Assembly (NCBI RefSeq): GCF_000382265.1
Contig: NZ_KB907976.1
Location: forward strand, 1-64,000
DNA length: 64,000 nt
Origin: Yoonia vestfoldensis DSM 16212
GTDB lineage: Bacteria; Pseudomonadota; Alphaproteobacteria; Rhodobacterales; Rhodobacteraceae
Reading direction: 5' to 3'
The position numbers and the translations under genes were made by a program. Below are positions 930 through 13,952 of this stretch, one piece after another. How positions within the stretch are numbered: the first letter of the stretch is position 1; each line of letters starts with the position of its first letter. The notes under the pieces are model-generated. The model did no database searches, had not been told where the DNA came from, and worked only from the letters and a program-made list of their open reading frames with translations.

Positions 930-1535
930 GTGAAAAATCAAAAGAAAAGTTACCATTACGGCGACCTGAAGCCGGCCTTGATCAAAGCAGGACTTGATAT
1001 TCTGGAACAGGACGGACTTGAAAACCTGTCATTGCGGGCGATTGCCGCGCGCGTCGGCGTCAGCCACACCGCACCGAAGAATCACTTTGACAGCTTCGAC
1101 GGGCTTCTCGCCGCAATTGCGACCGAAGGCTTCCGGCGGCACGCGGCCGAAATGCAGCGCGGCGTCGAAGGTTTACCCCCCGGAAGGGACCGGATGCGCG
1201 CGGCTGCCGCAGGCTACGTCCGGTTTGCCCAACAGAACCCGGCGTTGTTTCGGCTGATGTTTTCACCAAAACTTCGGGATCAGGCCGATCCCGATCTCGC
1301 GGCCGCAGGTGCGCAGAGCTATGGCGTCTTGCGCAGCGTCGCGGCCGGTCTTGAGTGGCCGCGCCCGGCGCCGGGCTTTGGCCCGGAGATGGAAAACCTG
1401 CGCACCGAGATGATGCTCTGGACCATCGTGCATGGCTACGCCTGGCTGCTGATCGAAGGGCGCGGTCCGCGCAAGGCGGATGGTACGCCGATACTTGATA
1501 TTCTTGACGTGATGCCCGATTTTGATGTGCCCTAA
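930..1535 (+). CDS. TetR/AcrR-family transcriptional regulator
   Basis: A 201-residue protein with an N-terminal TetR DNA-binding domain: LSLRAIAARVGVSHTAPKNHF (split here as LSLRAIAARVGVSHT then APKNHF) forms the helix-turn-helix at about residues 31-52. The C-terminal half carries the WxxVHGYAWLLIEG type of ligand-binding segment (WHG-type C-terminal domain) near residue 170. The start is GTG at 930 with AAGGGGG a few bases upstream. It is divergent from the ABA4-like gene, its most likely target. Its stop codon overlaps the stop of the convergent SnoaL gene in the tetranucleotide CTAA. Confidence 0.85.
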   Translation: MKNQKKSYHYGDLKPALIKAGLDILEQDGLENLSLRAIAARVGVSHTAPKNHFDSFDGLLAAIATEGFRRHAAEMQRGVEGLPPGRDRMRAAAAGYVRFAQQNPALFRLMFSPKLRDQADPDLAAAGAQSYGVLRSVAAGLEWPRPAPGFGPEMENLRTEMMLWTIVHGYAWLLIEGRGPRKADGTPILDILDVMPDFDVP

Positions 1536-2518
1536 CCGGAAATGCCGGCCAATACGTCGATCCCCTGCATCTTGAGGAAATGCAGCATGTCGATGAAAAT
1601 CCAGTTCTCGGCCAGTTTGTCGCCATCGCGCCGATAGATATCGACCACGCGCATATCCGCCCTTGGCCCCGCAGGCAGGCCCATAAACCCACCCGTGGGC
1701 GTCAGCGACAGATTGGGCCACCCGAAAAAGCCGCCCAGAGTGCCTTCGGCCAGACGGGCGACGTGCCCGTTGAAGGCCCTGTCCTTCAGCAGAGTGCGAA
1801 ACGGGCGCTGATGCTGTTCGATATAACGCGCGATCGTATAGGTCGCGCCGATCCCCTCAGGTCCCCACCAGAGCATGTCGTCGTGCCAGCATTCGGCCAT
1901 CTCGGCCTCGGGGGACGGATAGGTCTTGCTTGCGTTGATCGCGCCGATCATCCGGCAGATCAGGTCGAGCGTCTGCGCCCCCTCGGAAACGGGCTGGTCG
2001 GCATAGAGCAAACCGTCATGCGTCATCGGGCCGGGCTGCACCAGATGCGCGGCGGTCTGGTTCGGAAAGACCGTATGCCCGGCCTGCCGCAGCAGATGCA
2101 GCAGATCGCAGAAAAACGCGGTTTCGACAATCCGCCCGTCTTGGACACGGTGAAACTCGGCATAGCGTAGCATGACGATCCGCCGGGTTGGCTGGATGCC
2201 CAGAAACGGCGCGTCGAACAGTGCCATCAAATGCCCCATCGACACGACCCAGACCGAGGTGAAATCGTCGATCTGGTTGCGCCCGGCAAAGAAGACGTCC
2301 TCACGCCGCTGCACATGGGCCATGGCCCGCAGGAACGGTTGCCAGAACGTCTGCGCCACAGCCTCTGCCGCGGTCTGCTCGTGGAACGGATGCATTCCGC
2401 GCCAATGCCAGTCCGGCGCGGTGTGCTGTGCCAGTGCCGCGCCGATCGTATCGACGGTCGCGGCAGATTGGCTGGCGTGATGGGCCCGTACAACGGCCTT
2501 TTCGGTCCCGAAAGTCAT
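1532..2518 (-). CDS. Two-domain SnoaL/NTF2-like protein (ester cyclase-like)
   Basis: A 328-residue protein made of two NTF2-fold halves, roughly residues 25-165 and 180-320. Each half ends in the pattern RxxDG(R/D)(I/K)xExxxFxDxLHxL, seen as VQDGRIVETAFFCDLLHLL and RDGDKLAENWIFIDMLHFL. The family includes polyketide cyclases, hydrolases, dehydratases and small isomerases, so the reaction cannot be named. It is the last gene of the minus-strand ABC importer operon, 7 bases after the permease gene, with AAGGA before the ATG. Two more SnoaL-type proteins are coded on the opposite strand at 8357 and 10640, which ties this gene to the same pathway. Confidence 0.75.
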   Translation of the reverse strand: MTFGTEKAVVRAHHASQSAATVDTIGAALAQHTAPDWHWRGMHPFHEQTAAEAVAQTFWQPFLRAMAHVQRREDVFFAGRNQIDDFTSVWVVSMGHLMALFDAPFLGIQPTRRIVMLRYAEFHRVQDGRIVETAFFCDLLHLLRQAGHTVFPNQTAAHLVQPGPMTHDGLLYADQPVSEGAQTLDLICRMIGAINASKTYPSPEAEMAECWHDDMLWWGPEGIGATYTIARYIEQHQRPFRTLLKDRAFNGHVARLAEGTLGGFFGWPNLSLTPTGGFMGLPAGPRADMRVVDIYRRDGDKLAENWIFIDMLHFLKMQGIDVLAGISG

Positions 2519-2525
2519 GTTTGTC

Positions 2526-3404
2526 TTATCCTTTGACTGCGCCCGACGTCAGCCCCGACACGATCTGACGCTGAAAGAACAGGATGAGCACGAACAAGGG
2601 TGCAGTCGCCGACACGACCGCTGCGACCGCGAACATGACATTGCCTTCCTGTTGCGTCGATCCAAGGAACGACGCGATCTTCGGGATCATCGTCTGGTTT
2701 TGCTGGGACAGCAGCATCGCCGTGACCGCAAAATCGTTGTAGGCCAACAGAAAGCTGAACAGCCCTGTCGTGATGACGCCCGGCCACATCACAGGCACGA
2801 TCACATGCCGGAATGCCTGAAACCGGGTGCAGCCATCGACCATCGCGCTTTCGTCCAGGTCTTTGGGAATGTTGAGAAAGAAGGAATGCAACATCCAGAG
2901 CGTGAACGGCTGGTTGATGGCCACCAACACGATGATCGCCGTCGGCAGATGCCCCCAGACGTTCCATTCGAAGAACGGCAGCAGATACCCCGACACCAGC
3001 GTGATATGTGGCATGGCCCGAAACACCAGCGCAATCATCAAGAGCCAGAACGTATAGCGGAACCCCGACCGCGCGAGCGCGTAACCGCCCAGCGTTCCCA
3101 AGGTCAGTGAAATGACCACGACACTGACGACCACGATCATTGTGTTCAATGCCGCCCGCCAGAATTCCTCTTGTATCCATGCGCCTTCATACCCCTGGCC
3201 GGTAAATGCCGCACCGGTTTGCTCGGTGGTGAACGTCCCCGTCCATGCGTTGCGCCAATCTGCGAGGCTGAAGAAATCAGCCTGCACCTTGAACGACCCC
3301 CAGAGCGTCCAGAGGAATGGAAACGCCGCGACCACGACCCATAGCAGGACCAGCGCCGTCGAGATGCCGACAAGCAAAGGCGAACGTCTTTGTGCTGCGG
3401 CCAT
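2526..3404 (-). CDS. Carbohydrate-type ABC transporter permease (MalG/UgpE-like)
   Basis: A 292-residue inner-membrane protein with six predicted membrane segments. The cytoplasmic EAA loop is visible as ESAMVDGCTRFQAFRHVIVP around residues 195-215, followed by P(V)xxPG; this loop contacts the ATPase. Size and layout fit the CUT1 family, which imports oligosaccharides, polyols or glycerophosphodiesters. It follows the partner permease by 3 bases and is followed by a SnoaL-like gene. The transported compound is unknown; context suggests the substrate of the catabolic operon that runs rightward from 5960. Confidence 0.9.
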   Translation of the reverse strand: MAAAQRRSPLLVGISTALVLLWVVVAAFPFLWTLWGSFKVQADFFSLADWRNAWTGTFTTEQTGAAFTGQGYEGAWIQEEFWRAALNTMIVVVSVVVISLTLGTLGGYALARSGFRYTFWLLMIALVFRAMPHITLVSGYLLPFFEWNVWGHLPTAIIVLVAINQPFTLWMLHSFFLNIPKDLDESAMVDGCTRFQAFRHVIVPVMWPGVITTGLFSFLLAYNDFAVTAMLLSQQNQTMIPKIASFLGSTQQEGNVMFAVAAVVSATAPLFVLILFFQRQIVSGLTSGAVKG

Positions 3405-3407
3405 GGA

Positions 3408-4436
3408 TCAGGTCCTTTTGCGGTTGAAATCGCGCCATGTGCGGATCAGCACCGGCGTCAGCAGCACCACGATACCAAAGATCGTCAGCATCGACGTCGT
3501 CGCTGCCGCGCCGAACTGTGCCGCATCACCACGCAGATAGTTGTAGATATTGTAGCTGAGTGACGTAGCATTGGCCTGCGCCTGAAAGCCGACGATCGGT
3601 TCGAAAACCCGGAAATTGTCCATCAGCTGCATCAACGTGATAAAGACGGCCAGCGGCATCAGATGCGGAATGACAACATAGCGGACGCGCTGCCAGCGGC
3701 TTGCACCATCGATCATCGCGGCTTCCATGGGTTCTTCGGGGACAGTTTGCAGACCCGCGTAAAAGACGATGAACGCGAAAGGTGCCGATGACCACACGCC
3801 GTAGACCATCAGCATGATCCACGTCAGCACCGGCGACGCCTTGAGAGACAGGTCAGGATCACCCATCAGAATTTGCAGGCTCGACCCCAGCACGCCGCGA
3901 CTGTCGACCATCCAGAACAGGATCAGCGACCCGATCAATGGCGTCACGATCATGGGCAGGAGCGAGACAAAGATCGTCGGCCCCCGAAACAGGCGCGGAA
4001 GGGAATTGACGCCCAGCGCGATCGCCAGACCCAGCACGATCACCAGCGGCGTCACGACAAAAGTGAAGGTCAGCGTGAAAGCCAGCGCGCGCCAGAATGG
4101 CAGGGTCATCGCGCGGCGTGCAAAATCGGCAAAGCTATCTGACCGCTCCCACATGCTGCGCAATTCGGCCACAGCAAGATGGTTGCGGTCAAGATAGTTG
4201 CTGACACCGGCAAATCGCCCCAGAGGCTGGTTTTCGCGTAACTCTGCCGTGGCTTCGCGATCGACGATGGTTTCTTCGGCACAGCCGAACGGGCCGCAGT
4301 TTTCGACCACACGCAGCACCTGTTCGTGTTCGACGTGCAGCGACTGGATGAACACCGACCCCACCGGCAAGGCGATGAAGAGGATCATCGCCGACAGCGA
4401 CGGCAGGATGAACCAAAAGAATGTGCGGTGTTTCAT
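3408..4436 (-). CDS. Carbohydrate-type ABC transporter permease (MalF/UgpA-like)
   Basis: A 342-residue permease with an N-terminal membrane segment, a periplasmic stretch of about 90 residues that contains CGPFGC (two cysteines), then five more membrane segments. The EAA motif is EAAMIDGASRWQRVRYVVIP near residue 245. I choose ATG at 4434-4436, which has GGAG 8 bases upstream, over a TTG one codon earlier. It pairs with the MalG-like permease just downstream. The enlarged periplasmic loop between the first two membrane segments is also seen in MalF-type subunits. Confidence 0.9.
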   Translation of the reverse strand: MKHRTFFWFILPSLSAMILFIALPVGSVFIQSLHVEHEQVLRVVENCGPFGCAEETIVDREATAELRENQPLGRFAGVSNYLDRNHLAVAELRSMWERSDSFADFARRAMTLPFWRALAFTLTFTFVVTPLVIVLGLAIALGVNSLPRLFRGPTIFVSLLPMIVTPLIGSLILFWMVDSRGVLGSSLQILMGDPDLSLKASPVLTWIMLMVYGVWSSAPFAFIVFYAGLQTVPEEPMEAAMIDGASRWQRVRYVVIPHLMPLAVFITLMQLMDNFRVFEPIVGFQAQANATSLSYNIYNYLRGDAAQFGAAATTSMLTIFGIVVLLTPVLIRTWRDFNRKRT

Positions 4437-4463
4437 CAATCATGCTCCTGCGGCTGAAAAGGT

Positions 4464-4491
4464 GCCGGGCGGGCGATCTTGACCGCCCGGC
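4464..4491 (-). promoter_or_regulatory. Intercistronic stem-loop after the solute-binding-protein gene
   Basis: GCCGGGCGG at 4464-4472 pairs perfectly with CCGCCCGGC at 4483-4491 across a 10-base loop. It lies between the binding-protein stop and the first permease start. In many binding-protein-dependent operons such hairpins protect the upstream message and lower expression of the permeases. No T-run follows, so full termination is unlikely. Confidence 0.55.
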
Positions 4492-4499
4492 GCGCAGGA

Positions 4500-5729
4500 T
4501 CAGTTCAGAAAGCCCTGTGTGCGTGCAGCGGTTTCATAGGCCGCTTCGATGGTTTCAAGAGTTTCTTGCGCGCTTGCAGAGCCTTGCAGGTAGGCCGCAA
4601 GATTTTCACCCAGCGCCGTATGCATCAGCCCCATGTAGGGTTGCATCGGATAAGGCGCCGCGCCGGCCTGAGCACTGGCCACCACACCGGCCGATGCCGG
4701 GGTGGGTTCATAGCCATCAGCCAGCCACACGGCCAGCGCGGAATTCGCTGCGATACGTTCCGGGGTGAGGCCGTTGAGCATGGCGAGGAAACTGGCCTCG
4801 GCATCCTCGTCAGACGTATTCGCGGCAATGGTGAAACCGTCCCACCACAATGTCGTTGCAGGGCGCGTCTGCCCTTCGACATAGGGCGCTGCAGCCAGCA
4901 CGGTGGATTCGACAATCTCGGGGGTCGAATTCTCGCCTGCGAGGATACCCGCACCGCGCGATCCCCACAGCATCATGATACCCACCTCGCCCGCTTCCCA
5001 AAGCGCCTGTACGGAGTTCGATCCGAAGGTCAGGTAGTCGGGATTGGAATAGGATGTCAGCGCCTTCAGCGTCTCGAGCGTAGCGATACCCGCGTCGTTG
5101 TTGATGGCAGGTGCCGCTGATCCGGGTTCGAAGAAAGCACGGCCATGACCCAGGTAAAGGTTCACGAATTCCTGCGCCAGATCCCAGCCCGCGCCGGACA
5201 CGATGGCGACGGGATATTCCATGATACCCTGTGACCGGATCGCCTCTGCGGCGGCCAGCACATCGGCTGTCGTCTGGGGCGCATCGACACCGGCCTGTTC
5301 AAGAATGTCGGACCGATAGAACATGTGCTGGGCGTTCGCCATGAAGGCCACGGCCATGATCTGCCCCTCGATACGGACCAGCTGGGTCGGATCAAGGCTT
5401 GCGCCATGTTCCGCGACAAGATCATCCAGCGGCCGGATCAGACCCTCGTTCAAAAGCGGGACGATCGACCCGTTTGCAACGACTGCAACACTGTATTGCG
5501 ACGGATTGGCGGTCAGCGCGGCCACCTGAAGGTCCCGGTGGTCGCTGGTCAGGTTGGCGGTCACGTTCGGACCCTCACAGGCACTTGCACCTGCGACAAC
5601 GGCTTGCAGAGCCGGAAAGTCGTTGCCGAGGATCGACACATTGCCTGTCCCGCAATCGGCCAATGCCGCGCCCGCCCCGCCGACAGCGAGAACGGAGGCA
5701 CAAATCGTCGTTCTGAAAGCTTTGGTCAT
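4500..5729 (-). CDS. Extracellular solute-binding protein, CUT1 ABC importer
   Basis: A 409-residue periplasmic protein with a signal peptide (MTKAFRTTICASVLAVGGAG then ALA, cleavage near residue 24). The body shows family 1 binding-protein features: VAFMANAQHMFYRSDILEQAG, a tryptophan-rich hinge near LWWDGFTIAANT and repeated surface alpha helices. The start ATG at 5727-5729 has GGGAG 7 bases upstream; an upstream in-frame codon would place a non-signal leader before the signal peptide. It is the first gene of the minus-strand importer operon and is divergent from the ATPase gene. The ligand cannot be named from sequence. Confidence 0.88.
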   Translation of the reverse strand: MTKAFRTTICASVLAVGGAGAALADCGTGNVSILGNDFPALQAVVAGASACEGPNVTANLTSDHRDLQVAALTANPSQYSVAVVANGSIVPLLNEGLIRPLDDLVAEHGASLDPTQLVRIEGQIMAVAFMANAQHMFYRSDILEQAGVDAPQTTADVLAAAEAIRSQGIMEYPVAIVSGAGWDLAQEFVNLYLGHGRAFFEPGSAAPAINNDAGIATLETLKALTSYSNPDYLTFGSNSVQALWEAGEVGIMMLWGSRGAGILAGENSTPEIVESTVLAAAPYVEGQTRPATTLWWDGFTIAANTSDEDAEASFLAMLNGLTPERIAANSALAVWLADGYEPTPASAGVVASAQAGAAPYPMQPYMGLMHTALGENLAAYLQGSASAQETLETIEAAYETAARTQGFLN

Positions 5730-5796
5730 TGTTTTCTCCCTGTTACCCGCTGCGGCGGGATTGGTTGCAAACAGGCAAATGACCGAGATTCGCTGC

Positions 5797-5810
5797 TGCA
5801 TACGAATTCA
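5797..5810. promoter_or_regulatory. Candidate regulator operator, copy A
   Basis: TGCATACGAATTCA at 5797-5810 recurs with two changes as TGCATACATATTCA at 5918-5931. Copy A lies 68 bases upstream of the binding-protein start, and an adjacent CGAAT-TC-ATTCG palindrome covers 5803-5814. The two copies sit near the two divergent promoters of the importer and catabolic operon, where the LacI-family regulator coded at 9621 would be expected to act. Confidence 0.4.
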
Positions 5811-5917
5811 TTCGATCACATAATCGCAGCAAAAAAAACAACTTTTATTGGCAAGAACGTTCACATGACGCCCATATTTTAATCTTGTATGGCGCGATAA
5901 TGACTGCCATCGTATGT

Positions 5918-5931
5918 TGCATACATATTCA
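5918..5931. promoter_or_regulatory. Candidate regulator operator, copy B
   Basis: TGCATACATATTCA, 12 of 14 bases identical to copy A at 5797. It overlaps a GTATG-TTG-CATAC inverted repeat at 5912-5924 and ends 28 bases before the ATPase start codon. This position would allow repression of the rightward operon. The assignment to the LacI regulator in this operon is inference. Confidence 0.4.
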
Positions 5932-5959
5932 CTTCACCGACTCAACCGGGAGGGATGCG

Positions 5960-7024
5960 ATGGCCCAGATCGAACTGCGCGATATCTCCAAACGGTGGGG
6001 CACCTTCGTCGGGGTCCATAAGTTCGACCTGACGATCGCGGATCGGGAGTTTCTGGTGCTGCTGGGTCCGTCAGGCTGCGGCAAGACGACGACGATGCGC
6101 ATGATCGCAGGACTCGAGGATATCTCGGAAGGCGAGGTTTTGATCGACGGACGCCGCGTCAACGATCTTGACCCCAAGGACCGCGACATCGCGATGGTGT
6201 TCCAGTCTTACGCGCTTTATCCGAACATGAATGTCTACGACAACATCCGCTTTCCGCTGAAGGTGCGCGGCGTGCCTGCTGCCGACCACGATGCCAAGGT
6301 GATGCGCGCCGCCGAGATGGTGGAACTTGTGCCGTTCCTCAAACGTCGCCCGGCGGAACTGTCAGGCGGGCAGCGGCAGCGGGTCGCGCTCGCCAGGGCG
6401 ATCGTGCGCGAACCCAACCTGTTCTTGATGGATGAACCGCTGTCCAATCTGGATGCCAAGCTGCGCGTGTCGACGCGCGCGCAGATCAAGCACCTGAGCC
6501 ATGAACTTGGTGTGACCACGATCTACGTCACCCACGACCAGATCGAGGCGATGACGCTTGCCGACCGCGTGGTCGTCATGAACGCAGGTGTCGTCCAGCA
6601 GGTCGGTACGCCCACGGATATCTACGACTGGCCCGCGAATACCTTTGTTGCCAGCTTTATCGGCACACCCGCGATGAACCTGATGGAAGGCCGCATCGAC
6701 GACGGCGTCTTTACCGGCGAGAACGTCACGATTGCTGGCATTGCGGCACCCGATGGGCCTGTCACGCTTGGTTTTCGGGCCGAGGATGCGCAGATGGTGC
6801 CCACCGGCGGCCAGATCAACGGACAGGTCTATTCGCTGGAACTTTTGGGCGACGCGACCATGGCGACGGTCCGCGCGGGCGGTGCGATCGTCTCGATCAA
6901 GTGCAGCAAGGATTTCCGTGCCGCGATAGGTGCGGATTTCGCAGCACAGATCCCGCTGTCGGCCGTGCATCTTTTCGACGCGGCAAGCGGCCTGCGGATC
7001 GGACATTCCAGCCCGTCGCATTGA
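5960..7024 (+). CDS. Sugar-type ABC transporter ATP-binding protein (MalK/UgpC-like)
   Basis: A 354-residue ATPase of the CUT1 importer. Walker [10 protein letters not shown] is at residues 36-44, the signature [14 protein letters not shown] starts at 134, Walker [13 protein letters not shown] is at 154-165 and the switch histidine is in YVTHD near 195. The C-terminal 120 residues form the TOBE/regulatory domain typical of MalK and UgpC. The start ATG at 5960 follows GGAGGGATGCG. It is divergent from the binding protein and permeases and opens the rightward catabolic operon, so the importer genes are split between two transcripts. Confidence 0.93.
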
Positions 7025-7049
7025 TAGCATCCCGCGAAAGAACCACAGA

Positions 7050-8360
7050 ATGACAGTCACTTACCTGAAAACCGCCAAGCCGGAAGCAGAACGCGCCGAA
7101 GATGACGCCGTTGTGCGACGCACAGTGGAACAGACGCTGACGGATATCGAGACGCGCGGCGATGCCGCCATCGCCGATCTAAGCCTGAAATTCGACCGTG
7201 TCAGCCGCCCGTCATTTCGCCTGACCCCGTCCGAGGTCGAAGCGGCGATCCAGCAGGTCGCGCCGCGCGACATGGAGGACATCCGCTTTGCGCAGACCCA
7301 GATCCGCCGGTTCGCGCAGGAACAACGCGCCTCCTTGCGCGACATCGAGGTCGAAACGCTGCCCGGCGTGATCCTTGGCCACAAGAACATCCCGGTGCAG
7401 TCTGTTGGCTGCTATGTGCCCGGCGGCAAGTTTCCCATGGTCGCCAGCGCGCATATGTCGGTGTTGACCGCGCAGGTCGCGGGCGTGCCGCGCATCGTGG
7501 CATCGGCACCCCCCGTCAACGGCGCGCCGCATCCTGCCATCGTTGCCGCCATGCATCTGGGTGGCGCGCATGAGATTTACCTGCTCGGAGGCATGCAGGC
7601 GGTGGGTGCCATGGCAATCGGCACACCGACAATCGACCCTGTCCATATGCTCGTCGGGCCGGGGAACGCCTTTGTTGCCGAAGCCAAGCGCCAGCTTTTC
7701 GGCAGGGTCGGGATCGATCTGTTTGCCGGCCCGACCGAAACGATGCTGATCGTCGACGACACCGTCGATGCAGAGCTTTGCGCCACCGACCTGCTGGGGC
7801 AGGCAGAGCATGGCTATAACAGTCCGGCCTGCCTGATCACGACATCACGCAAGCTGGCCGAATGGACCCTGATCGAAATCGACCGCCTGCTGAATATCCT
7901 GCCGACACGCGACACCGCCGCTGTCAGTTGGCGCGACTATGGCGAGGTGATCCTGTGTGATACGCATGACGAAATGCTGGCCGTCGCCAATGACATGGCC
8001 TACGAACATGTGCAGGTGATGACAGACCGTGACGATTGGTATCTCGAAAAGATGCACAGCTATGGCGCCCTGTTTCTTGGACCCCGCACGAATGTCGCAA
8101 ATGGCGACAAGGTGATCGGCACCAACCATACGCTGCCCACGCGCAAGGCGGGGCGGTATACAGGCGGGCTTTGGGTCGGCAAGTTTCTCAAGACACACAG
8201 CTATCAGCGGGTGACGACCGACGCCGCTGCAGCGATGATCGGCGAACATGGCAGCAGGCTTTGCATGCTCGAAGGCTTTGTCGGCCATGCCGAGCAATGC
8301 AACATCCGTGTCCGTCGCTATGGCGGACGCAACGTGCCATACGGGGTGGCCGCAGAGTGA
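7050..8360 (+). CDS. Histidinol dehydrogenase-like NAD-dependent alcohol dehydrogenase
   Basis: A 436-residue member of the histidinol dehydrogenase superfamily. Catalytic and zinc positions known from E. coli HisD appear kept: Q and H in [11 protein letters not shown], the Glu-His pair in AYEHVQV, Asp in [14 protein letters not shown] and His in FVGHAEQ. There is no histidine operon here; the gene stands in a catabolic cluster with a sugar-type importer. The closest characterised catabolic relative I can name is HpsN, sulfopropanediol 3-dehydrogenase of roseobacters, and databases often give that name to such proteins. The true substrate may be another polyol-like compound oxidised to a carboxylate. 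The stop overlaps the next gene's GTG start. Confidence 0.85.
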
Positions 8361-8860
8361 GCGAGGCAGAAGACCACAGGGCGCAAAGCCGCGCATCGCT
8401 CGCGGCGGTCCAGCGGATGGAAGACGCGCTGGGCCGTGGTGAAACCGACATGTCACCTTATTTCACGCCGGGTTTCCTGTGGCGCGGAAACCGTGGGTCA
8501 GGGACCAAGCGCGGGGTCGATGAATTCCGCCGGAACTGGCAGCGCCCGTTGCGCGCGGCGTTCAGCGACCGGACTTACCTGACCGAAAAGATGATCGCCG
8601 ACGGGGATTGGGCGGCCTGTTTCGGACATATCGAGGCGACGCATTCCGGCACGTTCATGGGAATCGCGGCGACCGGACAGCGCGTCCGTATCCCCTATAT
8701 GGACTTCTGGCGGATCGAAGACGGGCGCATCGCCGACAATCCTGTCTTTGTCGATCTTGCCGACGTCCTTTTCCAACTGGGCCAGGACGTTTTCGGCGGC
8801 CAAGGCTGGGAGGCTTTCGACGAAGGCCGCGCTGAGCCACCGTTATTGGCGGGCACATGA
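8357..8860 (+). CDS. SnoaL-like / NTF2-fold protein, single domain
   Basis: A 167-residue protein that starts at GTG 8357, overlapping the stop of the dehydrogenase gene (GTGA). The body has the NTF2-like pattern: [13 protein letters not shown], then [19 protein letters not shown], then [20 protein letters not shown]. The RxxDGRIxxNPxFxD strand is the family hallmark also seen in the proteins coded at 1532 and 10640. SnoaL-like enzymes act as cyclases, isomerases, hydrolases or dehydratases on small substrates. Its stop overlaps the ATG of the SDR gene (ATGA), which implies translational coupling. Exact function unknown. Confidence 0.75.
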
Positions 8861-9624
8861 CCGACCTGCCGCGCACTCCCTCTTTTAGGTTGGATGGCAA
8901 GGTTGCGCTTGTGACGGGCGCATCATCGGGAATCGGCTTTGGGGCTGCGGTGGCCCTCGCACAAGCCGGGGCAGAGGTCGTGATGATCGCCCGGAGCGCT
9001 GACCGCCTGACCGCCACCTGTGCCGATATCGTGAAGGCCGACGGCAAGGCGCGCGCCATCGCACATGACATCACCGACATTTCCGGACTGCAGGCGATGA
9101 TCGCGCAAGAAGGACCATTCGACGTTTTGGTGAATGCAGCGGGCATGGCCCGTCATACCCCCGCGCTCGACACGACAGAGGATGATTTCGACGCTGTCGC
9201 AACGGTCAACATCAAGGCCGCTTATTTTGCGGCCCAGTCCGTCGCACGGGGGTTGGTCCAGGCGGGCAAGACCGGGTCGATCATCCAGATTTCCAGCCAG
9301 ATGGGCCATGTCGGCGGCCCGGACCGCGCAGTCTATGCCGCGACGAAACACGCGCTGGAAGGCATGACCAAATCCATGGCGATCGAATGGGGCGCGGCGG
9401 GGATTCGTGTCAACACGATCTGCCCGACCTTCATTCTGACACCGCTGACGCAGGCGACATTCGCCGACCCCGTCCGCCGCGCATGGATCACCGACAAGAT
9501 CAAGCTGGGACGGCCGGGCGAGGTCGAGGACATCATGGGCGCCGTCGTCTATCTGGCCTCTGAGGCAAGCGCGCTTGTCACCGGCACCGCCTTGCGGATC
9601 GATGGCGGATGGACGGCGGAATGA
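8857..9624 (+). CDS. SDR-family NAD(P)-dependent oxidoreductase
   Basis: A 255-residue classical short-chain dehydrogenase. The cofactor motif TGASSGIG is at residues 20-27, NAAG near 95, catalytic Ser in QISSQMGHVGG and the YxxxK pair in VYAATKHALEG near residue 160. The C-terminal GTALRIDGGWTAE is typical of FabG-type members. It probably oxidises or reduces a hydroxyl group of the pathway intermediate in the cytoplasm. The gene overlaps both neighbours, so it is a fixed part of the operon. Many such proteins are gluconate 5-dehydrogenase-like, but the substrate cannot be deduced. Confidence 0.88.
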   Translation: MTDLPRTPSFRLDGKVALVTGASSGIGFGAAVALAQAGAEVVMIARSADRLTATCADIVKADGKARAIAHDITDISGLQAMIAQEGPFDVLVNAAGMARHTPALDTTEDDFDAVATVNIKAAYFAAQSVARGLVQAGKTGSIIQISSQMGHVGGPDRAVYAATKHALEGMTKSMAIEWGAAGIRVNTICPTFILTPLTQATFADPVRRAWITDKIKLGRPGEVEDIMGAVVYLASEASALVTGTALRIDGGWTAE

Positions 9625-10643
9625 GGAACGCGCAAAAGGTCACCTCGGTCGATGTCGCGCGCCGTGCGGGGGTCAGTCAATCCGCCGTCAGCCGCGTTTT
9701 CACGCCAGGGGCAAGCGTATCGGCCGACATGACTGAAAAGGTACGGCGCGCTGCGGCCGAGCTGGGCTATAGCCCCAATCCGCTGGCCCGCGCGATGATT
9801 ACCGGCAAAAGCCGCATCATCGGTCTCGTCGTCGCCTATCTGGACAACCAGTTCTATCCGCTTGCCATTGAACGCCTGAGCCATGCGTTGCAGGCCGAAG
9901 GCTACCACGTGTTGCTGTTCATGGCGTCAAATTCAGAAGGCGAGATCGAAAAAGTCGTGACCGACCTGCTGGCCTACCGCGTGGACGGGATCATCACGGC
10001 CTCGGTCGCCATCACCAACGACATGACCCGCCGCTGCGCAGATGCGGGCATTCCGGTCGTCCTGTTCAACCGTGGCCAGCCCGGGTCCGGGTTGTCATCG
10101 GTCACATCGGCGAATGTCGAAGGCGGGCGCAAGGTGGCCGCGTTCCTGCATCAGGGCGGGCACAAACAAATCGCGCATATCAGCGGCTGGCAAGGGTCGT
10201 TGACGGGACGCGAACGCCAGCAAGGGTTCGAGGAAGGGTTGGCAGCGCTGGACGCGGCACCCCTGATGATCATCGACGGCATGTATGACCGCGCCTCCGC
10301 CCTTGCCGCGACCGAGACGCTGCTGCGGTCGGCCGTCGTGCCGGATGCGATCTTCGTGGGCAACGACCATATGGCTTTCGTTGTAATCGACACGCTGCGT
10401 CAGAACGGCCTGCGCGTGCCGCAGGATATCTCGGTCGTCGGCTATGACGACGTGCCGATCTCGGCCTGGCCCGCCTATGACCTTACGACCGTCCGACAAC
10501 CGATGAACCGGATGGTCGAGGCAACCGTGGACACGTTGCTGGCCCAGATCGCCGACCCGGACCGCCCGGCCCAGAAGATCGAGATCGGCGCACCGCTGAT
10601 GGTGCGTGGGTCGGCAAGACTCCCACAAGGACAAGCGACGTGA
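9621..10643 (+). CDS. LacI-family transcriptional regulator
   Basis: A 340-residue regulator. The N-terminal helix-turn-helix reads TSVDVARRAGVSQSAVSRVF, followed by the hinge helix segment NPLARAMITGKSRIIG. The rest is a periplasmic-binding-protein-like sensor domain ending VVGYDDVPISAWPAYDLTTVRQP. I choose ATG 9621, which overlaps the SDR stop as ATGA; an in-frame ATG at 9609 is also possible. It lies inside the operon it most likely controls, so it would autoregulate if it binds the repeated motif at 5797 and 5918. The inducer is expected to be the transported compound or an intermediate. Confidence 0.9.
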   Translation: MRNAQKVTSVDVARRAGVSQSAVSRVFTPGASVSADMTEKVRRAAAELGYSPNPLARAMITGKSRIIGLVVAYLDNQFYPLAIERLSHALQAEGYHVLLFMASNSEGEIEKVVTDLLAYRVDGIITASVAITNDMTRRCADAGIPVVLFNRGQPGSGLSSVTSANVEGGRKVAAFLHQGGHKQIAHISGWQGSLTGRERQQGFEEGLAALDAAPLMIIDGMYDRASALAATETLLRSAVVPDAIFVGNDHMAFVVIDTLRQNGLRVPQDISVVGYDDVPISAWPAYDLTTVRQPMNRMVEATVDTLLAQIADPDRPAQKIEIGAPLMVRGSARLPQGQAT

Positions 10644-11617
10644 CACAGACAAGCAACCGCTGGCGCGATTTTCCTGACTACATCATCGGAATCACGCAGG
10701 AAATCTGGGAAGGACGCGGCATCGCGACCCTTCACGATCATTACAGCGCCGACATTCCGGTGCGGACGCCGATGGGCGTGGCGCGCGGCAACGCGGGCGT
10801 GATCGCGGCGACGATGGCGACATTGCAGGAATTTCCCGACCGCGAATTGCTGGCCGAGGATGTGATCTGGTCCGGCAGCGCGCAGACAGGCTATCTGTCG
10901 TCGCACCGGATCATCTCGACCGGGACGCATACGGGCGACGGGTACTTCGGCCCCGCCACCGGACGACGGTTCCAGATCCGGGTCATCGCCGATTGTGCGG
11001 CAAGAAACCACGTCATCGATGACGAATGGCTGGTGCGCGACAATGGCGGGCTGGTGCGGCAGCTGGGCCAGGAGCCGCGCGGTTTCGCACGTGGACTGAT
11101 CGCGCGGGCGGGCGCAAACCCGCCGTTCACGCCCGCCGGCGACATCGCGGGGCCCTATACGGGGCACGGCAACGATGATCCATGGGGTGCCCGCTATGCC
11201 GACACGCTCGGGCGCCTGATGCGGGCGGATTTCGCCCATGTCACGACGGCCTATGACCGCGCGGTGATCGCGGAACATGCAGGCGCGCGCAGCCTGACGG
11301 GGCATCGCGCGGTGGGCGATGCGTGGCTGGGACTGCGCGCCGCTTTTCCATCGGCGGAATTCAAGCTGCATCATGTGATCGGGCGCGAAGACCCGTTGAT
11401 GCCACCTCGCGCCGCGGTGCGCTGGTCGCTGGACGGCATGCATGACGGATGGGGCATGTTCGGCGCACCCACCGGCGCGCCGGTCCATGTCATGGGGATC
11501 GCGCACGCCGATTACGGACCCTTCGGCAAGGAAGGTTCGAGCATCCGCCGCGAATACGTGCTTTTCGATGAAATCGCGATCTGGCAACAGATTCTGCTTC
11601 ACACAGGTGACATATGA
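10640..11617 (+). CDS. Two-domain SnoaL/NTF2-like protein
   Basis: A 325-residue protein that begins with GTG 10640 overlapping the LacI stop. Two NTF2-fold halves are visible. The first has the GxARGNAGVIAATMATLQEFPDREL pattern near residues 45-70 and HVIDDEWLVRDNGG around 130. The second has the analogous TGHRAVGDAWLGLRAAFPSAEF near residue 225 and a strand with WSLDGMHDGWGMFGAPTGAPV. Size and layout match the 328-residue protein coded at 1532, so the two are probably distant paralogs. It may act on a carbonyl or lactone intermediate, but no reaction is supported by the sequence alone. Confidence 0.7.
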   Translation: MTQTSNRWRDFPDYIIGITQEIWEGRGIATLHDHYSADIPVRTPMGVARGNAGVIAATMATLQEFPDRELLAEDVIWSGSAQTGYLSSHRIISTGTHTGDGYFGPATGRRFQIRVIADCAARNHVIDDEWLVRDNGGLVRQLGQEPRGFARGLIARAGANPPFTPAGDIAGPYTGHGNDDPWGARYADTLGRLMRADFAHVTTAYDRAVIAEHAGARSLTGHRAVGDAWLGLRAAFPSAEFKLHHVIGREDPLMPPRAAVRWSLDGMHDGWGMFGAPTGAPVHVMGIAHADYGPFGKEGSSIRREYVLFDEIAIWQQILLHTGDI

Positions 11618-12579
11618 CCCCCCAGGAAATGGACGCGCGGATTGTGCGTTATGGCGATCTGCGCCCATGCAAGACCGCCTTTATCGACGCTCACACGCCA
11701 GGCAGCGACCAGAAGGAGAATTTCACCATCATCGGTGGCGGCGTGTCGGAAAGCCCCGATCAGCATGTGCATCTGACGGAAACACCGGGTTTCAACATTG
11801 GCGCTGCCGGACAGCCGCCCAAATGCCGCAACTCGCTGCACAGTCATCGCACCGCCGAGGTTTTCTTTGTTCTCAAAGGCCGCTGGCGGTTTTTCTGGGG
11901 ACGTTGGGGCACGGCGGGCGAAGTCGTTGTGGAAGAAGGCGACATCTTCAACATCCCGACCGGCATCTTTCGCGGATTCGAGAATATCGGCACCGACTAT
12001 GGCATGATCATGGCGATCCTTGGCGGCGACGATGCCGGCGGCGGCGTGATCTGGGCACCCCAGGTGATCGAGGACGCAAGCGCGCATGGGCTGGTGCTGG
12101 GACGCAACGGTCGGCTTTACGACAGCAAGAAAGGCGAAACACTGCCCGACGGGATGACGCCCATGCCGCTGCTGGATGCAGCCGAGCTGGCCCGTTTCCC
12201 CGAACCGACGACGGCGGATGTCGTCCCGCGCCATGTTGCGCGCTATTGGGATCTTGTGGCGCTTGCCGACAGGCAGCCCGCCAAGGTCATCGGCGCCGAT
12301 GCCCGCCTGCGGGACCGTCCAGGTTTCGAGGTGGAGCTGCTGACGCGCGGGTCGCTGCCGGATGCCGATTACATGCTTGACCGCCACGAGGTGCTGATGC
12401 CGATGCGCGGGCATTGGCGGCTGACATGGGCAGGCGGCACGACGGTGCTGAACCCCGGCGATACGGCTGCGATCCCGCCGGGACTGGCCCATCGCCTGGC
12501 GCCGTCGATGGCAGGTGAAGCGAGCCTTTACCGTGTCATCGCGACAGATGATCCGGCCGGTCCAACCAAGGCCGCGTGA
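11614..12579 (+). CDS. Bicupin domain protein
   Basis: A 321-residue protein with two cupin domains. In the first (about residues 65-140) the metal motif NSLHSHRTAEVFFVLKG gives two His and one Glu, but the second cupin motif reads GDIFNIPTGIFRGF and lacks the usual final histidine. The second domain (about 235-310) has DRHEVLMPMRGHW and GDTAAIPPGLAHRL. Bicupins include dioxygenases such as gentisate 1,2-dioxygenase, isomerases and non-catalytic binding proteins. Its ATG overlaps the previous stop as ATGA and its stop overlaps the next start, so it is part of one translationally coupled operon. The incomplete metal site makes dioxygenase activity uncertain. Confidence 0.75.
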   Translation: MTPQEMDARIVRYGDLRPCKTAFIDAHTPGSDQKENFTIIGGGVSESPDQHVHLTETPGFNIGAAGQPPKCRNSLHSHRTAEVFFVLKGRWRFFWGRWGTAGEVVVEEGDIFNIPTGIFRGFENIGTDYGMIMAILGGDDAGGGVIWAPQVIEDASAHGLVLGRNGRLYDSKKGETLPDGMTPMPLLDAAELARFPEPTTADVVPRHVARYWDLVALADRQPAKVIGADARLRDRPGFEVELLTRGSLPDADYMLDRHEVLMPMRGHWRLTWAGGTTVLNPGDTAAIPPGLAHRLAPSMAGEASLYRVIATDDPAGPTKAA

Positions 12580-13259
12580 TGACCCCGCTGGTCCTGATCC
12601 CCGGCATGATGTGCGACGCCCGCATGTGGGGCGCTGTGCCCGATGGCCTGGCGGTGCCGGTGCATCACGCATGCCCGGTCGGCGCGGATACGATCGCCGA
12701 TCTGGCGGCATTGTTGCTGCGCGATCTGCCCGATCGCTTTGCGCTGGCCGGATTGTCGATGGGCGGGATCGTCGCCATGGCGATGGCGGCATTGGCCCCC
12801 GAACGCGTGCTGCGGCTGGCCTTGCTGGACACCAATCCACGGGCCGAAACGCCGCAGGTGCAGGCCCGTCGTCAGCCACAGATTGATCGCGCCGCGCGTG
12901 GCGATTTGGCAGGCGTGCTGCGCGACGACATGATCCCTCATTACCTAGCAGCACCCGACCCCGCGATCGAAGCGCTTTGCCTCGACATGGCGCTCGATGC
13001 AGGCCCGCAGGTGTTTCGTGACCAGTCCATCGCGTTGCGGGACCGCCCTGATCAGCAAGACGCGCTCCGCGGCTTTACCGGCCCTGCCTTGGTGTTGACC
13101 GGCGCGCAAGACCGGCTCTGCCCACGCGACCGGCACGATCTGATGCATGCGCTGATGCCGCAATCCGATCTGGTCATCATCGACGGCGCAGGCCATGTGC
13201 CGCCGCTGGAGCAACCCGTTGCAACCGCCGCTGCCCTGCGGCGCTGGCTGGAGACTTGA
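12579..13259 (+). CDS. Alpha/beta-fold hydrolase
   Basis: A 226-residue hydrolase. The nucleophile elbow is GLSMGG near residue 65, the acid is likely Asp in TGAQDRLCP near 175 and the histidine is in GAGHVPPLEQP near 205, so the catalytic triad is complete. Such enzymes cleave esters, lactones or C-C bonds of beta-diketones. I choose ATG 12579, which overlaps the bicupin stop as TGATG; a GTG one codon earlier is equally in frame. The next gene starts directly after its stop. In this pathway it may open a lactone or ester made by upstream steps; that is inference. Confidence 0.85.
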   Translation: MTPLVLIPGMMCDARMWGAVPDGLAVPVHHACPVGADTIADLAALLLRDLPDRFALAGLSMGGIVAMAMAALAPERVLRLALLDTNPRAETPQVQARRQPQIDRAARGDLAGVLRDDMIPHYLAAPDPAIEALCLDMALDAGPQVFRDQSIALRDRPDQQDALRGFTGPALVLTGAQDRLCPRDRHDLMHALMPQSDLVIIDGAGHVPPLEQPVATAAALRRWLET

Positions 13260-13952
13260 ATGGACAAGGAGCTTTTGACCCTGTTGCATGCCGTCGACAC
13301 ACCGACCGTGTGCAACGCCATCGAAACCGTTCAGGGGCGGCGGGGGTTCGACGCCTTCACGCGCGGGACGATGATCTGTACGGAACCGGGGCGCGCCGTT
13401 GTCGGCTATGCCGTGACGGCGCAGATCTCCGCACTTGCCCCACCAACAGAACCCCCGTCGGTGATCCGCACCCGGCGCATGGACTATTACCGCGCGATGC
13501 ATGACGCCCAGAAACCTTCGGTCGCTGTGGTCGAGGACATGGATTTTCCCGGATGTATCGGCGCCTATTGGGGCGAAATCAACACGTCGATCCACAAGGG
13601 TTTCGGGCTGTCGGGCGCGTTGACCAACGGTGTCGTCCGCGATCTGGGCGATCTGCCATCCGGGTTTCCGGTTATTGCAGGCAGTATCGGCCCCAGCCAC
13701 GGTTTCGTGCATGTCGTGTCGATCAACGAACCTGTCCGTATTTTCGGGATGAAGGTCTGTCAGGGCGATCTGGTTCATGCTGACAGGCATGGCGCGCTGG
13801 TCGTCCCGCGTGACGTGATCCCGTCACTGGCCACAGCGATAGCAACACTGCAACAGACAGAACGGTTGATCCTTGACCCCGCACGCAGCCCCGGCTTTGA
13901 CTTTGCGACGTTCGAAACCGCATGGGCCGCGTTTGAAAAGGCGCGGACCTAG
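13260..13952 (+). CDS. RraA-family protein (class II pyruvate aldolase-like)
   Basis: A 230-residue member of the RraA/HMG-aldolase family. The conserved strand is GFGLSGALTNGVVRDLGDL near residues 118-135, where the Arg and Asp of the active-site RD pair are present. The second landmark is GDLVHADRHGALVVP near 170. Family enzymes with this pattern cleave 4-hydroxy-4-methyl-2-oxoglutarate-type substrates to pyruvate or decarboxylate oxaloacetate; others bind RNase E. The metabolic setting favours an aldolase that yields central metabolites. It is the last gene of the operon and its stop overlaps the stop of the convergent ugd gene in a CTAG tetranucleotide. Confidence 0.82.
   Translation: MDKELLTLLHAVDTPTVCNAIETVQGRRGFDAFTRGTMICTEPGRAVVGYAVTAQISALAPPTEPPSVIRTRRMDYYRAMHDAQKPSVAVVEDMDFPGCIGAYWGEINTSIHKGFGLSGALTNGVVRDLGDLPSGFPVIAGSIGPSHGFVHVVSINEPVRIFGMKVCQGDLVHADRHGALVVPRDVIPSLATAIATLQQTERLILDPARSPGFDFATFETAWAAFEKART

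Follow-up and report, generated by a model that had tools for sequence, protein, structure and literature searches.

What does a bacterium take up and degrade with a gene set that places five SnoaL-type domains beside a sugar-type importer? The question is raised by a locus at 1532-13952 of the window, the 64,000 nucleotides at the start of contig NZ_KB907976.1 of Yoonia vestfoldensis DSM 16212, where 13 genes form two divergent groups whose starts flank a gap at 5730-5959. The initial annotation had listed here a CUT1 importer, a HisD-like dehydrogenase, a short-chain dehydrogenase (SDR), a LacI regulator, a bicupin, an alpha/beta hydrolase, an RraA-type protein and three SnoaL proteins (SnoA, SnoB and SnoC below), and had proposed that they serve one pathway. 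Using Pfam, we find every member of this set where it was described, and all proteins of the locus receive a Pfam name; specific NCBIfam cut-offs are passed by few, namely the ATPase (UgpC) and the HisD-like protein (hisD domain model). The ABC importer is complete, with a binding protein, two permeases and an ATPase of the UgpC/MalK type, and the regulator has both its helix-turn-helix and its periplasmic-binding-like domain. We are highly confident that this is a LacI-controlled uptake and degradation regulon and a single conserved catabolic unit, because SnoC and the HisD-like gene co-occur, a five-gene core recurs in mapped loci, and an operator ties dispersed pieces of the set together. 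Each part is of a known family; the novelty lies in how the parts are combined and in how SnoaL proteins have multiplied within a catabolic regulon.

We searched 394 genomes of the family for SnoC, the best marker of the locus, and 179 matched at E 1e-10 or better; 169 of these, about two in five genomes, were counted as strong and 10 weak matches (about E 1e-25 to 1e-45) were set aside. The HisD clade matched in 192 genomes at E 1e-150 or better. Both genes were found in 157 genomes, SnoC only in 12, HisD only in 35 and neither in 190, so the co-occurrence in related genomes on which the initial annotation had staked its proposal is found. Since the marker gene is present in 169 of 394 genomes, the substrate is probably common in the habitats of these bacteria. 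Six of the 12 genomes with SnoC only were inspected: three loci are cut by contig ends at the place of HisD (L108, L109, L111) and one has a piece of HisD at the end (L110), leaving these four uncountable, and two Rhodobacteraceae SnoC loci (L064, L107) look truly HisD-less.

Gene content was mapped in 61 loci chosen for SnoC, 21 from a named-species scan and 40 hand-picked from the family SnoC matches. HisD was seen in 55 loci, LacI in 53, SDR in 50, cupin in 45, the permeases PermF and PermG in 42 and 38, the solute-binding protein in 41, the ATPase in 38, a MetE-like protein in 37, the hydrolase and RraA in 31 each and SnoB in 29; these counts depend on identity thresholds, and some misses come from contig ends or stretch limits. 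HisD, SDR, LacI, SnoC and cupin are all present in 43 of the 61 loci, or 42 of 59 after dropping near-duplicates (L068 of L039, L051 of L050), in line with the conserved synteny that had been suggested as a check. The number of SnoaL-type hits per locus ranges from 1 to 6, most commonly 3 (28 loci), and a further SnoaL hit lies between HisD and SDR in 32 loci. Where cupin, hydrolase and the MetE-type (Meth_synt_2) gene were all mapped (24 loci), the last stands between the other two in 23, and 8 of the 61 loci have an S-adenosylmethionine (SAM) methyltransferase. Relative to many relatives, the window locus is a reduced version.

Regulation provides a further line of evidence. A palindrome, TTGCATwCGwATGCAA, is shared upstream of importer and SnoaL genes. 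Its exact form TGCATNNNNATGCA occurs in 11 loci among 91 upstream regions, and TTGCATNNNNATGCAA with at most 2 mismatches in 61 of 87 loci scanned, a loose pattern whose count includes chance hits. The stricter TTGCATNCGNATGCAA was found with at most 2 mismatches in 38 of the 61 SnoC loci (72 sites), against which each of twelve scrambled half-sites gave between 0 and 12 loci; with at most 1 mismatch it was found in 29 of 61 versus 0 or 1. These 61 loci also served to find the motif. More independent evidence comes from searching whole genomes: of 295 in the family, 63 contain exact TTGCAWWCGWWTGCAA and none of them a reversed control pattern, though some of these genomes overlap the discovery loci. 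SnoC (weak matches included) or HisD is present in 60 of the 63 genomes with the site versus 96 of the 232 without it. We hand-picked 13 off-locus operator regions (L121-L133) among the sites listed. They include a cupin (L129), a cupin with a hydrolase (L128), a hydrolase (L125), SnoaL paralogues (L126), an amidase-HisD2-SnoC-like group (L124), importer-SnoaL groups (L130, L132, L133) and a TAXI-type transporter (L127). Judged by these motif matches, a common operator links dispersed pieces of the regulon. Another site, around 8172 of L131, lies ahead of an alpha-amylase/ABC sugar locus, where another LacI protein may share the 16-bp motif, and three unexplained sites (L121-L123) lie in genomes without SnoC or HisD.

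In the window itself, matches with at most 3 mismatches number 21, below the chance mean of 29.3. The two candidate copies in Table 1 are insignificant alone, and what supports them is their position and their 121-bp spacing, which is close to that of some relatives: operator pairs lie 114-126 bp apart in 11 loci (two of them on the same contig) and 47-56 bp apart in ten. The likelier start of the solute-binding protein is ATG 5729, with a GGGAG motif ahead of it, which would leave the candidate at 5796-5811 outside the gene. No sigma-70-like promoter was found in the divergent gap.

The closest solved structures of the HisD-like enzyme are dehydrogenases of 2,3-dihydroxypropane-1-sulfonate (DHPS; PDB 8v35, 8wwe). 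Gln251, His254, Glu319, His320, Asp353 and His413 are invariant in 48 of 48 rows and align with the zinc and catalytic residues of HpsN, a four-electron DHPS 3-dehydrogenase whose zinc ligands and catalytic pair are described in an excerpt of PMC11382572. Where HpsN has its sulfonate-recognising His126, 60 of the 69 rows with data (at least 60% identity) carry Met and the other 9 Leu, a count that leaves out 4 rows without data; in the same clade Lys127 is invariant and His135 is found in 68 of 69 rows. By these residues the protein looks like a four-electron zinc alcohol dehydrogenase that lacks the mark of the DHPS enzymes. It also passes the histidinol dehydrogenase model TIGR00069 (412.6 bits versus a cut-off of 243.8). 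The genome holds a second and better PF00815 match elsewhere (555 versus 427 bits), presumably the histidine-pathway enzyme.

For the SnoaL proteins, what is established is the fold; the ring or double-bond steps that the initial annotation had proposed for them stay hypothetical. PF07366 finds the five domains of the initial annotation, two in SnoA, one in SnoB and two in SnoC, and the predicted SnoC model (19 sequences, pLDDT 89.8) indeed shows two NTF2 domains; the fold was modelled for SnoC only, and SnoA and SnoB are assigned by Pfam score. For residues 8-142 and 178-321 of the model, alignments with SnoaL-type proteins reach Z 16.2 (3kkg, 135 residues, 2.2 A), and many NTF2 proteins match at similar Z, so that no reaction is singled out. 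Among the fold matches is PhzA/B, which performs imine chemistry on an aminocyclohexenone. Both SnoC domains have many residues that are polar and invariant across the 19 sequences, which come from Alphaproteobacteria and Vibrionaceae. No NCBIfam model matched SnoA, SnoC or the bicupin at E 0.001, and SnoB stays far under the curated cut-off of the SnoaL/DnrD methyl ester cyclase model NF033407 (46.4 versus 200).

The remaining enzymes are assigned to families rather than to reactions. Among the best 25 of 235 NCBIfam matches listed, the SDR is under every cut-off: KduD (TIGR01832) scores 214.6 versus 338.85, and the closest to passing is a glucose 1-dehydrogenase model (199.3 versus 215). The bicupin has an HxHx3E motif (residues 76-82) whose two His and one Glu do not vary among 16 rows, and in the same alignment an invariant Arg120 stands at what we take to be the place of the usual second-motif His. 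Its structure model is weak; Foldseek matches on it are oxalate decarboxylase and quercetinase bicupins, including a quercetinase with kojic acid. The alpha/beta hydrolase is far under the cut-off for the 3-oxoadipate enol-lactonase PcaD (TIGR02427; 88.2 versus 255.85). The RraA-like protein, with PDB matches 3k4i and 3noj, is also far under that for LigK (TIGR02798; 31.3 versus 304.5), the aldolase whose substrate is 4-carboxy-4-hydroxy-2-oxoadipate (CHA), in agreement with the name of the model.

Related sets are found in Vibrio, Pantoea, Priestia and Deinococcus, and recur in many marine and some plant-associated bacteria; SnoC relatives were found in 53 plasmid records. HisD-like and SnoaL genes stand together in distant loci of Roseibium (L099), Priestia (L100), Pantoea (L101), Deinococcus (L102), Sinorhizobium (L103) and Novosphingobium (L104). 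Most of these have an SDR (not seen in the L099 and L102 stretches), and most have a cupin, a hydrolase and a gene of an aldolase family (RraA or HpcH/HpaI); L099 shows no cupin, hydrolase or aldolase gene. They carry an amidase, replaced in L102 by a nitrilase-type protein, and two HisD-like genes are present in L099, L101 and L102; a second HisD clade and amidase thus recur in distant versions. Transport is by CUT1 in L099, L102 and L103 and by MFS in L100, L101 and L104, and TRAP, TAXI and sodium symporter genes occur in some versions. An HpcH/HpaI-family protein, under specific cut-offs, replaces RraA in Vibrio, Pantoea, Priestia and Ensifer. In a phylum-wide sample the HisD clade matched in 31 of 398 genomes, and 14 neighbourhoods were taken: L155-L157 have a nearly full set (HisD, SDR, hydrolase, HpcH, cupin, LacI, SnoC, a second SnoaL and a second HisD), L159 is Vibrio-like, L160 and L162 retain most core genes, and in the remaining eight HisD has fewer partners or none. 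Of 118 genomes in the genus of Vibrio coralliilyticus, 15 have SnoC at E 1e-40. Vibrio and Photobacterium include species of coral origin. In Ensifer L105, where the stretch seen has no HisD, one protein passes the cut-off for 3-oxo-tetronate kinase and another narrowly misses that of the matching decarboxylase model (240.8 versus 250). HisD and SDR are paired without detected SnoaL or SnoC in L112-L115 and L118, next to TRAP or XDH genes in L112, L113 and L115.

Several variant loci were seen in passing. At 9433-15145 of L114 the HisD-SDR pair stands beside a MetE-like protein, a BKACE beta-keto acid cleavage enzyme and a luciferase-like monooxygenase, with SnoaL undetected; this is a different use of the pair. 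On a Phaeobacter inhibens plasmid (L094, 7608-10978) an importer ATPase, a SnoaL relative and SnoC have IS3 transposase genes nearby, and HisD, SDR and cupin were unmatched within 21 kb; L094 may be a decaying remnant of the locus. An odd minimal version (L043, 9992-14608) has SnoC beside an M19 membrane dipeptidase, a MetE-like protein, RraA and a PNPOx-like protein (weak, under cut-off), without HisD. A further protein family adjoins SnoC or cupin in L074, L082 and L084 (366, 368 and 325 aa), and its 366-aa L074 member had no Pfam match at E 0.001.

The layout of the window locus is given in Table 1. From 8357 onward each gene abuts its neighbour or shares 4 bases with it, much as first described, provided that the LacI gene starts at ATG 9621; otherwise its overlap is 16 bases. 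Next to the locus, a TetR-family regulator gene (930-1535) runs convergently and overlaps the end of the SnoA gene by 4 bases, and it is adjoined by an ABA4-like membrane protein (352-825); neither shows a sign of belonging to the locus.

Table 1. Genes and candidate operator sites of the catabolic locus in the window.
Feature	Position	Strand	Evidence
SnoA, double-domain SnoaL/NTF2, 328 aa	1532..2518	-	PF07366, two stretches, 51.3 bits (cut-off 28.4)
CUT1 permease, MalG/GlcU type	2526..3404	-	PF00528; best NCBIfam MalG/GlcU, under cut-off
CUT1 permease, UgpA/GlcT type	3408..4439	-	PF00528; NCBIfam under cut-off
Solute-binding protein	4500..5729 (ORF to 5801)	-	PF01547; start judged from sequence
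Candidate LacI operator 1, degenerate, CTGCATACGAATTCAT	5796..5811		3 mismatches
Candidate LacI operator 2, degenerate, TTGCATACATATTCAC	5917..5932		2 mismatches to TTGCATNNNNATGCAA
UgpC-type ABC ATPase	5960..7024	+	NF008653, 444.1 bits (cut-off 432)
HisD-like zinc dehydrogenase, 436 aa	7050..8360	+	PF00815, 427 bits; best PDB matches DHPS dehydrogenases
SnoB, single-domain SnoaL, 167 aa	8357..8860	+	PF07366, 81.9 bits; PDB SnoaL 1sjw, E 1.4e-8
SDR dehydrogenase, KduD/glucose-dehydrogenase-like	8857..9624	+	PF13561
LacI-family regulator	9621..10643 (ATG 9621 or 9609)	+	PF00356, 46.6 bits; PF13377, 104.7 bits
SnoC, double-domain SnoaL, 325 aa	10640..11617	+	PF07366; model; alignment
Bicupin	11614..12579	+	PF07883; alignment
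Alpha/beta hydrolase, enol-lactonase/esterase-like	12576..13259	+	PF00561
RraA/HMG-CHA-aldolase-like protein	13260..13952	+	PF03737, 65.7 bits (gathering score 24.5)

Which substrate could account for such a set? It has to explain sugar-like import in most family loci, oxidation of a hydroxymethyl group beside a coordinating hydroxyl, many SnoaL paralogues, the MetE-like protein and SAM methyltransferase of relatives, a lactonase-like hydrolase, a bicupin, an aldolase of either the RraA or the HpcH/HpaI type, the amidase with a second HisD, and the 3-oxo-tetronate enzymes of Ensifer. The most likely class, put forward tentatively, is an amino-substituted C7 cyclohexenone, that is, mycosporines, mycosporine-like amino acids (MAAs) or gadusol, a class absent from the candidates of the initial annotation. 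Their skeleton is a cyclohexenone with a C2 methoxy group and, at C5, a hydroxyl and a hydroxymethyl group (a tertiary alcohol), and on our tentative analysis it may meet most of those features at once. This suggestion, which falls short of even odds, draws on the fit of enzyme types to structure, the accessory genes of relatives and reported bacterial hydrolysis of MAAs, for which an excerpt of PMC3083659 gives no genes. Gadusol is described in an excerpt of PMC4665425 as an enolated cyclohexane-1,3-dione.

The families, conservation, co-occurrence, operator and intact HisD catalytic residues are computed results, whereas every step by which such a compound would be degraded is inferred. The CUT1 importer would take it up, and SnoaL proteins, at least one for each substrate variant, would hydrolyse ring C-N bonds and free the amino acid. 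The HisD-like enzyme would use NAD in a four-electron oxidation that turns the ring hydroxymethyl group, which lies next to a hydroxyl, into a carboxylate, and the MetE-like protein, where present, would remove the O-methyl group. SDR, bicupin and alpha/beta hydrolase would oxidise and open the ring, and the RraA-type protein (elsewhere the HpcH/HpaI-family protein) would cleave a 4-hydroxy-2-oxo acid to pyruvate and oxaloacetate. On paper this acid would be 4-carboxy-4-hydroxy-2-oxoadipate, reached by hydroxymethyl oxidation, demethylation and oxidative cleavage next to C2. Without the oxidation, the gadusol carbon would on paper yield 3-oxo-tetronate, fitting the kinase of Ensifer L105. The second HisD and amidase would suit amino-alcohol amides such as mycosporine-glutaminol. 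A widespread bacterial route by which mycosporines and MAAs are broken down completely, with SnoaL C-N hydrolases, a HisD-made carboxylate, ring opening to a 4-hydroxy-2-oxo acid and a HisD2-amidase branch for fungal amino-alcohol amides, is possible and somewhat more doubtful than the substrate class itself.

A number of observations weigh against the mycosporine proposal. The tentative substrate fit is reached by elimination and ring bookkeeping. In the stretch seen, 24 of the 61 loci have no MetE-like gene, and O-demethylation is unexplained in the window genome because no MetE-like match was found there, in a search run without a positive control. Were a tertiary alcohol the HisD substrate, the partner SDR could not act on the adjacent carbon. 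The idea that OtnK and OtnC generally take over wherever HisD is missing was considered and rejected, as only L105 matches among L033-L120, and L064 and L107 have no OtnK-type kinase despite the absence of HisD. The TRAP, TAXI and sodium symporter genes suggest acid substrates in some versions, the RraA-like protein and hydrolase are far under every listed NCBIfam cut-off and the SDR is under those of its best 25 of 235 matches, and the ecology, judged from host names in the records and from coral and leaf habitats, is equally compatible with other compounds of algae or plants.

Nearly as likely as the MAA/gadusol reading, and likewise short of even odds, is an open-chain or sugar-like substrate ending in a vicinal diol, for example a deoxy-polyol or deoxy-sugar, a branched sugar or a glyceryl ether. 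HisD would here yield a 2-hydroxy acid and SDR a 2-oxo acid, RraA or HpcH would cleave a 2-oxo-4-hydroxy acid, and the SnoaL proteins, cupin and hydrolase would prepare the substrate. The HisD-SDR pairs in which SnoaL was undetected (L112-L115, L118), some of them with TRAP or XDH genes (L112, L113, L115), would suit a plain R-CHOH-CH2OH better than a mycosporine; CUT1 with LacI is typical of sugars and polyols; and similarities under cut-off link the SDR to KduD and the HpcH proteins to GarL and HpaI. However, such a substrate gives no role to the 1-6 SnoaL-type hits per locus, the MetE-like gene or the HisD2-amidase pair. Less probable is another ring compound: a lactone or an ascorbate-like reductone, kojic acid, or a C7 aminocyclitol such as valienamine. 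The lactonase-like hydrolase and the dioxygenase-type fold matches of the weakly modelled bicupin, including the quercetinase with kojic acid, speak for it, but ascorbate and kojic acid leave the amidase and SnoaL proteins unexplained, and aminocyclitols the MetE-like and SAM methyltransferase genes of relatives. It is unlikely that the SnoaL proteins are binding or carrier proteins and that HisD, SDR, cupin, hydrolase and aldolase do all the chemistry; core enzymes do occur without detected SnoC (L112-L115, L118) and non-enzymatic roles in the NTF2 superfamily are noted in an excerpt of PMC6219798, but the invariant polar residues in both SnoC domains and the 1-6 SnoaL-type hits per locus speak against it. 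The sulfonates that the initial annotation had included among candidates, with the HisD-like protein as an HpsN acting on DHPS or a relative, we reject as very unlikely since His126 is replaced in all 69 rows and no sulfolyase turned up among the selection of proteins scanned, even though the best PDB matches are DHPS dehydrogenases and the locus resembles hps operons in its neighbouring SDR and, for some genomes, in the TRAP transporters that hps operons also have.

The locus is apparently undescribed: in the literature searched, we found no published pathway with this gene set, as the initial annotation had supposed, and no published description of genes for MAA breakdown. If the MAA reading is true, the reported turnover of algal and coral sunscreens by bacteria would gain its genes, and the SnoaL fold a new reaction class. 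Experiments can start directly from the operator and the HisD motif.

Compared with known systems, the locus shares parts with several. The 3-oxo-tetronate pathway (OtnK, OtnC) is represented in Ensifer L105 by OtnK and a near-cut-off OtnC-like protein, whereas the other loci of L033-L120 had no match. The 4-hydroxy-4-methyl-2-oxoglutarate (HMG)/CHA aldolases LigK and ProA belong, like the RraA-like protein of the window, to the RraA superfamily, and the matches are weak. The HisD-like protein passes the model cut-off of histidinol dehydrogenase HisD, but it stands in a catabolic gene context. HpsN has the same catalytic and zinc residues as the HisD-like enzyme; however, His126 is particular to HpsN, and the locus enzyme has Met or Leu there, plus Lys127 and His135. 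AtzH, an NTF2-superfamily protein and inferred amidohydrolase, sits with an amidase in a catabolic operon for a nitrogen compound according to an excerpt of PMC6219798, and is set apart from the SnoaL proteins of the locus, by description only, as a member of another family (DUF3225). The SnoaL/SnoaL2 polyketide cyclases and IdmH share the NTF2 fold with the locus proteins by sequence and structure matches, whereas here, in SnoA and SnoC, two such domains are fused and stand in a catabolic context.

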